A stretch of 39,247 nt of DNA from Nanobdellota archaeon (GTDB lineage: Archaea > Nanobdellota > Nanobdellia > Pacearchaeales > GW2011-AR1). The DNA is taken from positions 1 through 39,247 of the forward strand of contig JAUSKH010000002.1 in NCBI GenBank assembly GCA_030647095.1, read 5' to 3'. Below are positions 4,689 through 14,880 of this stretch, piece after piece. The notes under the pieces were generated by a model that worked only from the letters and a program-made list of their open reading frames with translations, made no database searches and was not told where the DNA came from. The translations under genes were made by a program, and so were the position numbers. Within the stretch, counting starts at the first letter, position 1; each line of letters starts with the position of its first letter.

Positions 4689-4922
4689 ATGAATAATAGA
4701 GAGTTAATGAGTGCAGAACTTGAATTAGGATCTAGAGATTTTATTCCTTTTTTAGGTGAGAAAAGCTATAGAAAAAGAAAAGAATCATTAACTGATAGAA
4801 TGAATCTTAATCAACTGAAAAGATATGAAATGAATCATACATTATTAACAATATACAACTCTTCGCTAATTGTGTTAGCTACATATGGAATTATAAAAGG
4901 AATAGACTCATTTTTTTATTAG
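4689..4922 (+). CDS. Small membrane protein related to the intron-2 ORF
   Basis: 77 aa; SRDFIPFLGEKSYRKRKES motif plus a C-terminal hydrophobic helix. Confidence 0.5.
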   Translation: MNNRELMSAELELGSRDFIPFLGEKSYRKRKESLTDRMNLNQLKRYEMNHTLLTIYNSSLIVLATYGIIKGIDSFFY

Positions 4923-4932
4923 TTTCTTATAG

Positions 4933-5961
4933 TTAACTAACAGTACTATTCCCACCAAACAACTCAAGTCCAGTCGGGACATTTACGCCCAAATAAAGAA
5001 GCAGTATATACATAGCCAAGAATAATATTATCATTAAAATAAATATAGACAGAATTGCAAAAAAAGTTCTTCCTTTAGATACATTATGATATGTCGATAA
5101 ACCAAATAAAGAAAGTATAAAACTCCATATTCCGACAAACGGAATAAAAATAAATAACATTTGCGGCGTTGAAGAATAAACAATTGCTTTATATGTATCT
5201 CTATATTTTCCACTTCCTCCATATAGTTTCATAAATAAATGAACGATTACAGCACTAATAAAAATAAATAAAGGATTAATAATGAAAAAGAGCACAGCTA
5301 AAATACCAATAATAGTAGCACTAACAGCAATAGAAAATCCTCCTGTTGCAGATATATCAGGTATAACATTACCAGCAGAAACTAGTGCAGCAGGAAGAAT
5401 AGATAAAATTACACCAAAAAGAAAAATCACCAAAATAGAAGTTATAAGAAAAGGAACTATAGATATAAATAATTGATAAAAGAAGGCAGGAGATATCTTT
5501 TCCTCTTTTGTTTTTTCGAATAGTTCTATTGGATGTATAAAAGATTTTCCTATCTTTTTAAACAAACCCATCTTTTCAGCAGGCGATATATTAATCTGCA
5601 AACCAACAGTTGGCATAGGTTGCAAAAAGTTTTCTACAGGAGGCGAACTGGGTGGAGTAATTGATTTTTGTAAATTTTGATTATCTAAATTAGTTTGCTG
5701 TTCATATGTATTTGTGGAAGATGCTGTCTGTTCATTCTGTTTTAACGTTGTTTGCTGATTATTCTGAGAAGGAATAAAATTTTTATTCTGAGAAACAGAA
5801 TTAGACGATCTGTTTTGCGTCAAATTTGTTATATAATCTCCAGCTTCTTTAACGTCCTGCTCTTTATATCCTGCTTCAAGTAATTTTTGTTTTAGGATTG
5901 AAATATCAACCCCTTTTTTTATACCTTCAATTAAATAGTTTAAAGCCTGCTGATTCACCAT
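4933..5961 (-). CDS. YIP1-like multi-pass membrane protein
   Basis: Soluble N-terminal region, then several TM helices; KYRDTYKAIVYSSTPQMLF...PFVGIWSF resembles the Yip1 domain. Confidence 0.65.
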   Translation of the reverse strand: MVNQQALNYLIEGIKKGVDISILKQKLLEAGYKEQDVKEAGDYITNLTQNRSSNSVSQNKNFIPSQNNQQTTLKQNEQTASSTNTYEQQTNLDNQNLQKSITPPSSPPVENFLQPMPTVGLQINISPAEKMGLFKKIGKSFIHPIELFEKTKEEKISPAFFYQLFISIVPFLITSILVIFLFGVILSILPAALVSAGNVIPDISATGGFSIAVSATIIGILAVLFFIINPLFIFISAVIVHLFMKLYGGSGKYRDTYKAIVYSSTPQMLFIFIPFVGIWSFILSLFGLSTYHNVSKGRTFFAILSIFILMIILFLAMYILLLYLGVNVPTGLELFGGNSTVS

Positions 5962-12342: not shown

Positions 12343-12416
12343 AACCACAAGATGTAACCTTTAATAAGTAATAACAATATAGAAAAGTTTAAATACACCT
12401 AAAATTTAAGAAAAAT

Positions 12417-13202
12417 ATGACATCAACACAATACGGGATAATTGAAGTAAAACAACCAGAGCATCCTCCTAGAAGTTTGCTTGTAGTTCCACATGAAAAC
12501 AACAATTTAATTGTAGGTTTTCCTGCTTTTGGTCCAGGTACTTATTCAGGTAATCAAAATTCTATGCAAAAATCATATTCTCATCCTCAAACTGGAGAAA
12601 GAATCTCTTTTACCCCAGCAACTACAGCCCAGTCTATTTCAGCAGCAGCATATGACTTTAAGAATCTAGCAAAACCTCAAATTTTTGACCCACAATGGCT
12701 GCAATTAGGATATATTTTAAGAACATCTGAAGGCGTTTTTGTAAATCTTCCAAAGGATAAACAAGGAAATGTAATAACAGACGAAGCTATTCTCAAATCC
12801 CATTTAAATGGAATTAAGCCAATTAGAATTGGCAAGAGTGATATTTACATTGCTTCAAATACAGAAAAGTTAAAAGATTTTGGCTTTGCACCCTATGAAA
12901 CTTTCCAAACAGGAATCCAGGACGGAAAAAAATTCGCAGAAGGCGGTTTAGCAAGAGTATTGGAACACACAGAAGAAAAAGCAAATGCTTTAGGAAAAAT
13001 AGCTTCCACTAAATTCTATCTAACAGGAGTTAATGTATGGGCTTTTGAGCAAACTAAAGAGCCTGTTTTAAGGGTTGCTAGTCTTGGCTCTGGCAGGGTC
13101 TCTGGTAGCGGCAGGTTGAGCGTTAATGGCAACGACTGGAGCAACGAGGGCTATGCTTTTGGGGTGTTAGATTCTGGCAAAGCCAGCGCAAAAAATTTGT
13201 AA
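12417..13202 (+). CDS. DGR variable (target) protein, C-terminal VR
   Basis: C-terminal VASLGSGRVSGSGRLSVNGNDWSNEGYAFG is encoded by a 94-bp repeat matching the downstream A-rich TR. Confidence 0.9.
   Translation: MTSTQYGIIEVKQPEHPPRSLLVVPHENNNLIVGFPAFGPGTYSGNQNSMQKSYSHPQTGERISFTPATTAQSISAAAYDFKNLAKPQIFDPQWLQLGYILRTSEGVFVNLPKDKQGNVITDEAILKSHLNGIKPIRIGKSDIYIASNTEKLKDFGFAPYETFQTGIQDGKKFAEGGLARVLEHTEEKANALGKIASTKFYLTGVNVWAFEQTKEPVLRVASLGSGRVSGSGRLSVNGNDWSNEGYAFGVLDSGKASAKNL
13073..13166 (+). repeat. DGR variable repeat (VR)
   Basis: Gap-free alignment to 13389-13482 (offset 316) with 16 mismatches, 15 at TR adenines. Confidence 0.93.
13174..13186 (+). promoter_or_regulatory. Small hairpin just downstream of the VR (DGR target-hairpin candidate)
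   Basis: CTGGC-AAA-GCCAG starting 8 bp after the VR end. Confidence 0.5.
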
Positions 13203-13388
13203 AAAACTTTATTAATCCATTCTTTCTAATTACTATGTCTTAGTCAAGCGAATATTCGTCAAGGCTAGGGCCACATGCCTATTACTCATGCTCGAAAGAG
13301 TATCAAATGCAAACGCAACAGCAAGTAGTTATAAAAAACGAACCCTGAAGCGTTGGTGATTTATTGTAGGGTAAGAGGCTACATAGTT

Positions 13389-13482
13389 GGTTGCTAGTCT
13401 TAACTCTAACAGGAACTCTGATAGCAACAGGTTGAACGTTAATGGCAACAACTGGAACAACAATGGCTATGCTTTTGGAATG
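13389..13482 (+). repeat. DGR template repeat (TR)
   Basis: A-rich copy of the VR with nine AAC codons in the VR reading phase; located between target gene and RT. Confidence 0.93.
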
Positions 13483-13506
13483 GCTCTAGCACCTAAGACT
13501 TTATAC

Positions 13507-14589
13507 ATGAAAACATACAAAAATCTCTATGAAAAAATAATTTCATTTGATAATTTGGTTCTGGCTTGGAAAAAAGCACGTAAGGGAAAAACACAGAAGT
13601 TATATGTAGTCAAATTTGAAGAAAACCTTGAGAAAAACCTTCTTGACCTGCATTTTGATTTAAAGGAGCAAATATACAAACCGATACAACTAGAGACATT
13701 TATTTTACGTGATCCAAAAACAAGAAAAATATCAAAATCAGATTTTAGGGATAGAATTCTTCATCATGCAATTATTAATATTTTAGAACCAATCTTTGAC
13801 AAAACTTTCATTTACGATTCATGTGCAAATAGAAAAGGCAAGGGAAATTTATTCGCTCTAAAAAGATTTAATCAATTCAAAAGAAAAGTATCAAATAATG
13901 GAACTAAAGCACCCAATGTATTTAACGATTCAAATTATATAAAAGGATACTGCCTAAAAGCAGATATTAAACATTATTTTGAAAAGGTAGATCAGGAAAT
14001 TCTATTAAAACTAATAGAGAAAAGAATAAAAGATAAGAACATAATCTGGCTGATTAGTCTAGTAATAAAGAATAATACGAACTTTGAAACGAAGAGAGAG
14101 GGTAATAATTTAGGAAAGGGTATGCCTCTAGGAAACCTAACATCGCAATTCTTCGCAAATATTTATCTCAATGAATTAGACTATTTTATTAAACACGAGC
14201 TTAAAGCAAAATATTATATCCGTTATGTAGATGATTTTGTGATTTTACATAAATTAAAATCACAACTTGAAAATTGGAAGGAAAGGATCAACTCGTTTCT
14301 CAAAAAGCAACTCAAATTAGAAATACATCCTGAAAAATCGCGCATTATTGCTCTATCTCGAGGCTTAGATTTCGTAGGCTTCAGAAACTTTTATCACTTC
14401 AAACTTCCTAGAAAAAGAAATATTAAGAAAATGAGGCATAAAATAACTTCTTTTGCAAACAAGGAAATACAATATAGGGAATTAATGGAATCATTTAACG
14501 GTTGGCAAGCATATGCCAAGTGGGGAAATACATTTAAAATACGAAAGAGTATAATTAGAGAGATTTATAGAGTGAAATTCAACGAATAA
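13507..14589 (+). CDS. DGR reverse transcriptase (ORF opens at TTG 13387 through the TR; ATG 13507 is the likely start)
   Basis: RT motifs YCLKADIKHYFEKVD, GMPLGNLTSQFFANIYLNELD (DGR-type GxxxSQ), YIRYVDDFVIL, LDFVGFRNF. Confidence 0.93.
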   Translation: MKTYKNLYEKIISFDNLVLAWKKARKGKTQKLYVVKFEENLEKNLLDLHFDLKEQIYKPIQLETFILRDPKTRKISKSDFRDRILHHAIINILEPIFDKTFIYDSCANRKGKGNLFALKRFNQFKRKVSNNGTKAPNVFNDSNYIKGYCLKADIKHYFEKVDQEILLKLIEKRIKDKNIIWLISLVIKNNTNFETKREGNNLGKGMPLGNLTSQFFANIYLNELDYFIKHELKAKYYIRYVDDFVILHKLKSQLENWKERINSFLKKQLKLEIHPEKSRIIALSRGLDFVGFRNFYHFKLPRKRNIKKMRHKITSFANKEIQYRELMESFNGWQAYAKWGNTFKIRKSIIREIYRVKFNE

Positions 14590-14601: not shown

Positions 14602-14880
14602 ATGAGATTAGAACTATTTTCAATCCCAAATGATGCAAATGGAAATCTTATAAAAGACTTTCTTGTAAAAAATAATTTAACGTTTACAGAAATAATAACA
14701 GAAGATACTGAATTATTAAATAAGATTGCACAAACTAAACTATTAAATAAAATCTCTATATTAAGAGTTACATACTCTCATTCAATTCACGTTATGATTG
14801 GATACCAAGAAAATCAATTGAATCAATTAATTGAGCATATTAAAAAGTATAATCAAAATCACAATGAAACCCAACTTTAA
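14602..14880 (+). CDS. Hypothetical protein, possibly thioredoxin/glutaredoxin-like without CxxC
   Basis: MRLELFSIPNDANGNLIKDFLVKNNLTFTEI resembles a beta-alpha-beta glutaredoxin start; weak. Confidence 0.35.
   Translation: MRLELFSIPNDANGNLIKDFLVKNNLTFTEIITEDTELLNKIAQTKLLNKISILRVTYSHSIHVMIGYQENQLNQLIEHIKKYNQNHNETQL

Follow-up and report, generated by a model that had tools for sequence, protein, structure and literature searches.

Among the described diversity-generating retroelements (DGRs), those of the DUSEL4 nanoarchaea come closest to the element treated here. These DGRs (Paul 2015, PMC4372165) have the gene order target-TR-RT, a variable repeat (VR) which differs from its template repeat (TR) specifically at adenines, an IMH motif TGGGGT and an IMH* motif TGGAAT; C-type-lectin-like targets, represented by AvpA (PDB 5ioo), a C-type-lectin variable protein of nanoarchaeal DGRs (Handa 2016, PMC5006420), and the presence of several DGRs per genome are further traits. 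All these traits were found again in the window, by which we mean the whole analyzed stretch of 39,247 nucleotides of contig JAUSKH010000002.1, from a nanobdellotal genome of 1.09 Mb and 93% completeness, or in its genome. A hairpin within the target ORF with a loop of 3 nt is a further common trait, the loop being AAA in the window and GRA in the DUSEL4 DGRs. The DGR of Bordetella phage BPP-1 resembles the window in the fold of its reverse transcriptase (RT), in the TR/VR pair and in the logic of IMH and hairpin; its structured RNA is located between TR and RT, whereas that of the window is located 5' of TR. A third point of reference is an RNA family of Rfam, RF03019, which is there named merely RT-16 RNA, and whose link to the template RNA of DGRs is made here, by position. 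The simple-sequence contingency loci of Campylobacter, Neisseria and Helicobacter, finally, which vary in phase through poly-G or dinucleotide tracts, carry repeats with a unit length of 1 or 2 nt within a coding loop, occur as in-frame and out-of-frame alleles and are in strong excess over the genome background. The same holds for the RT family described below, which is, in contrast, archaeal, and in which the switched gene would encode a mutator RT and not a surface or modification function.

The element of the window was confirmed as a real DGR of the Pacearchaeota type of DPANN archaea, a kind which is already known, while an RT gene switched by repeats would be new. The identification of RT-16 RNA beside the TR is a difference from the DUSEL4 DGRs; RT genes with putative switching repeats occur in relatives of the window, and no mention of them was found in the excerpts of the two nanoarchaeal reports (PMC4372165, PMC5006420). 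A survey of the open-access literature yielded no earlier report of DGRs together with phase variation, homopolymers, frameshifts or slippage.

Anatomy of the retroelement

All features of the element are located on the forward strand. The sequence-only reading had proposed a compact archaeal DGR, with a VR at 13073–13166 and a TR at 13389–13482 which form an ungapped alignment of 94 bp containing 16 mismatches. This alignment was reproduced exactly, as were the types of mismatch (14 A to G, 1 A to T, and one T to G at TR 13464/VR 13148), and both the adenine specificity and the DGR-type RT were borne out. Changes affected 15 of the 30 adenines of the TR and 1 of its 64 remaining positions (Fisher p = 2e-8). 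When adenine differences were tolerated, the VR agreed with the TR at 63 of 64 non-adenine sites, and the match ranking next in the window at only 29 of 64; a search of the genome for further VRs of this TR, which the same reading had suggested, gave none. Two of the A to G differences, at TR 13479–13480, are part of the IMH*/IMH motif pair TGGAAT/TGGGGT (IMH* at 13476–13481, at the 3' end of the TR; IMH at 13160–13165, at the 3' end of the VR), which is also described for the DUSEL4 nanoarchaeal DGRs (Paul 2015, PMC4372165). Because of their position inside this motif, these two changes are probably fixed differences between cis elements; when they are set aside, the mutagenized part consists of 12 A to G and 1 A to T, and these 13 adenine changes are clearly mutagenic. 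The strong bias towards A to G fits the family as a whole, where changed adenines were replaced by G in 68%, by T in 27% and by C in 5% of cases.

The target gene (12417–13202, 261 aa), whose ORF was found as the earlier reading had described it, contains the VR at its 3' end and is preceded by a likely archaeal TATA box, TTTAAATA, at 12388–12395; a similar sequence, GTTTAAATAA, is present upstream of the paralogous target on contig C66 of the same genome. Downstream of the VR, and still within the target ORF, a 5-bp hairpin CTGGC-AAA-GCCAG was detected at 13174–13186, which by itself is weak (z -1.5). The window thus contains IMH, IMH* and a post-VR hairpin, as is expected of a DGR. On C66, the corresponding hairpin (L004:5655–5735) is much larger, its CTGGC...GCCAG stem enclosing two inserted stems (z -5.2).

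The RT gene starts best at the ATG at 13507 and extends to 14589 (360 aa, with GMPLGNLTSQ at residues 205–214 and YVDD at 240–243); a longer ORF of 400 aa, from 13387, runs through the TR. The protein matched Pfam RVT_1 and PHROG 1423. Its assignment to the DGR type, made earlier from the GNLTSQ motif, was upheld by sequence and by fold: the best sequence match in the PDB was the DGR RT of the Bordetella phage, 8ub7 (E 1e-38, the highest-ranking group II RT reaching 5e-20), and the first five fold matches of an AlphaFold model were all DGR RTs, with 8ub7 at the top (TM-scores 0.82/0.90). Directly after the RT gene, at 14602–14880, a protein of 92 aa is encoded, with a weak glutaredoxin-like match below the cut-off; it is probably unrelated to the DGR.

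Template RNA and target protein

Between target and TR, at 13238–13387, a full-length match to RT-16 (RF03019) was obtained with 84.2 bits, the gathering threshold being 50; its end is separated from the start of the TR by 1 nt. In ten genomes of the genus 16 RT-16 matches were found, every one at a locus of a DGR RT and immediately upstream of TR or RT; nearly every TR of the genus is accompanied by one copy. An RNA alignment of our own suggested its closing helix. The distance from the end of the TR to the start of the RT gene is about 25 nt in the window and about 20–40 nt in most relatives, which leaves little room for a downstream spacer RNA of the BPP-1 kind. Judged from its position, RT-16 is here probably the 5' portion of the template RNA and the scaffold to which the RT binds. 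An RNA which Rfam knows only as RT-associated would thereby probably have a function in the template RNA of DGRs without Avd, as its 5' portion.

The accessory protein Avd (bAvd, PF22296) was not detected in the ten genomes of the genus, which is another difference from BPP-1; the same search did detect PF22296 in two related viral records. Avd is a common but not a universal accessory protein of DGRs, and since it is optional, membership of the window element among the DGRs holds without it.

The target protein gave no match in Pfam, NCBIfam or PHROG. For its predicted structure the sole credible fold match was AvpA (5ioo_A; probability 0.99, E 5e-3), with a modest TM-score of 0.43/0.51, so that by structure prediction the C-terminal variable domain of the target has a C-type-lectin-like fold; that this fold is closest to AvpA is a further difference from BPP-1. 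In an alignment of 14 target homologues the VR part varied around a constant frame, L..S...RL.V.G..W...GYAFGV. A third target-like gene of the same genome (G000:C3:32524–33291, L254), 49% identical, looks like an undiversified paralog, since no TR or RT was found nearby and no adenine signature was seen against either TR of the genome (TR1, TR2).

Simple repeats in the reverse transcriptase genes of relatives

The genome of the window contains a second, paralogous DGR on C66, with a target gene at 4913–5683, RT-16 at 5772–5935 and an RT gene from 6063. All of the 19 changes in its VR concern adenines. The RT gene is frameshifted at a run of 11 G, and is in this sense OFF in the assembly; no second G/C run in this assembly of 1.09 Mb reaches a length of 10.

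For estimates of prevalence, 79 RT loci spanning the repeat site were used, which came from searches of the genus and the family and were sampled regardless of repeats; a wider set of 93 RTs was not used for this purpose, because it includes loci found through their G pattern. The relatives are mostly represented by metagenome-assembled genomes. A long G or AG repeat was present in 37 of the 79 DGR-type RT genes; 31 of these were out of frame (OFF) and 6 in frame (ON), whereas 39 of the 42 repeat-free genes were intact and 3 broken (p = 2e-12). In the ten genomes of the genus, 9 of 13 G/C runs of at least 10 were inside DGR RT genes (p = 4e-22), although these occupy only about 0.2% of the sequence, and all nine were out of frame in the assembly. 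When 84,980 species genomes were searched for nine G together with the GMPLGN motif, a pattern limited to RTs with this spelling, 30 loci were obtained, nearly all labelled as DPANN archaea and one record labelled as a bacterium; no combination of tract and RT motif was found in viral contigs.

The repeats, with units of 1 or 2 nt, are nearly all located in one disordered surface loop just before GMPLGNLTSQ. Frameshifted loci without poly-G had mostly (AG)n in the same loop; a second site for poly-G, after YVDD, is occupied in two RTs of the genus and apparently also in L167. The loop is the main length-variable one of the RT alignment, and residues 192–200 of the window RT, which correspond to it, are the only segment to which AlphaFold assigned a pLDDT below 50. 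In a weakly supported RT tree, at least 24 gains or losses of repeats were counted. Among the RT loci, same-species pairs with at least 90% identity were not found. The window RT itself carries (AG)4 in this loop (14093–14100, codons 196–198), in frame and thus ON, with flanks ACGAACTTTGAAACGAAGAGAGAG which match those of relatives (compare L169 and L174), so that it can be read as a contracted form of their (AG)n.

Out-of-frame copies retain traces of function. YxDD was present in 36 of 37 out-of-frame RTs, and the differences at the three codon positions downstream of the tract were distributed as.296/.150/.523 in OFF genes and as.296/.174/.506 in intact ones; judged from these patterns, the downstream halves of OFF copies are under purifying selection. 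The VRs of OFF elements had changes at 470 of 835 adenines and 22 of 1927 other sites, similar to those of ON elements (396 of 742 and 11 of 1757), the non-adenine changes being underestimated in both classes, as the TR/VR finder prefers clean pairs.

Three further observations concern single RTs or groups of them. An in-frame RT of locus L053 (G001:C1) is without about 45 residues (182–227), including GMPLGNLTSQ, and its VR is largely adenine-specific. In locus L194 (G083:C1) about 27 AG units were found in the loop, together with a second frameshift upstream. One RT subclade (L201, L204, L207, L208, L209, L212, L214 and L215) had neither repeats nor a detectable TR/VR nearby, and consists perhaps of DGRs with distant templates or of another RT system.

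Slippage as a possible switch of hypermutation

To our knowledge, the regulation of DGRs, and the means by which good target variants are protected from destruction, are poorly known. The reading as a whole, a complete DGR without Avd whose RT gene is a slippage contingency locus, can be held with good confidence. It appears likely that in Pacearchaeota and Woesearchaeota targeted hypermutation is toggled at random, by slippage of G or AG repeats where the DGR RT has a disordered loop. For the window, the switch is inferred from relatives, since (AG)4 is too short for strong instability; the window RT contains this repeat alone, and no long unstable one.

In the organism of the window, mutagenic homing would begin with a transcript of the RT-16 scaffold followed by the TR, which the RT would copy, making errors at adenines. 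At the 3' end of the target gene, with its IMH TGGGGT and hairpin, the resulting cDNA would then take the place of the VR, and a C-type-lectin-like binding face would be randomized in about 20 codons. Within populations, the G(n) or (AG)n repeat before GMPLGNLTSQ would change its length by slippage; the length of the tract would place the catalytic half with YxDD in or out of frame, and hypermutation would switch reversibly and stochastically between ON and OFF. The window copy, with its contracted (AG)4, would represent the ON state, and its sister on C66, with G11, the OFF state of the assembly; conceivably, the former could act in trans for the latter. The benefit might be that the target is mostly kept unmutated, with rare bursts of diversification: if the reading is true, a working variant would be held while the RT is OFF, diversified in rare ON cells and then locked again. 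This would amount to an evolvability system of two layers, in which simple-sequence phase variation acts on an archaeal mutator, and simple-sequence contingency loci would join the biology of DPANN archaea.

The main rival to a switch by DNA slippage is slippage of the RNA polymerase or the ribosome, by which full-length RT would be produced from a tract of any length in a small and constant proportion, so that the mutator would stay at a low level without genetic switching. Transcriptional slippage is possible at long homopolymers, and (AG)n repeats are not classic sites for it. Such a constant low supply would suit the somewhat high proportion of out-of-frame copies (31 of 37) and the signs of recent activity which OFF elements still bear, but repeats are often gained and lost, and copies with an in-frame tract exist, so that we regard this explanation as unlikely. 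OFF copies are somewhat more frequent than the expected two thirds (p about 0.03), so that a different mechanism, e.g., transcriptional slippage, may be at work. A programmed ribosomal frameshift at the G tracts was ruled out; the offsets +1 and -1 were divided 16 to 15, as at random, and with equal offsets no single programmed frameshift fits.

Much less probable is that the frameshifted RT genes are decaying pseudogenes or low-complexity assembly errors, and that the window contains an ordinary DGR. All assemblies except one are drafts, and the RTs of L047 and L193 are broken at sites outside any repeat; against this, frameshifts were hardly found outside repeats, the repeat types differ at one and the same loop, in genomes from many projects, among them the AR20 chromosome (CP010426), which is titled complete, and neither the apparent purifying selection downstream of the tract nor the adenine-only changes in VRs of OFF elements would be expected from decay. 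An RT of two chains, the second of which restarts at the ATG of GMPLGNLTSQ and assembles with the first, would make the frame irrelevant, and the second RT ORF on C66 does start at this ATG; many relatives, however, have a single unbroken ORF with the same internal ATG, and repeats which change the frame would serve no purpose, which renders this explanation highly improbable. Next to no probability is given to coincidental repeats in an RT that stems from a group II intron or from a defence system, a reading which the fold search and the TR/VR pairs of the family refute. The best NCBIfam match of the RT was group_II_RT_mat, and PADLOC returned generic RT matches, but searches by PDB sequence and by fold preferred DGR RTs, the GNLTSQ motif is present, and most members of the family adjoin a TR/VR pair with adenine-only changes. 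A group II intron RT or maturase was rejected, as the score of 145.6 bits was under the cut-off of 300 and no intron RNA was found in Rfam searches, where RT-16 gave the only match above gathering.

Repeats of the same types were also noticed outside the DGRs of the genus. Runs of 11–12 G/C in G003:C18 (L063/L263), G003:C19 (L080) and G005:C4 (L064/L265) are located roughly 50–70 bp upstream of genes whose products begin with a transmembrane segment, which is a classic promoter-spacing position for phase variation. In G008:C30, a G10 run is situated within the gene of a membrane-anchored protein, and (AG)n repeats were found in or upstream of genes for membrane or secreted proteins in G003:C1:12862 (L260) and G007:C65:3590 (L261).
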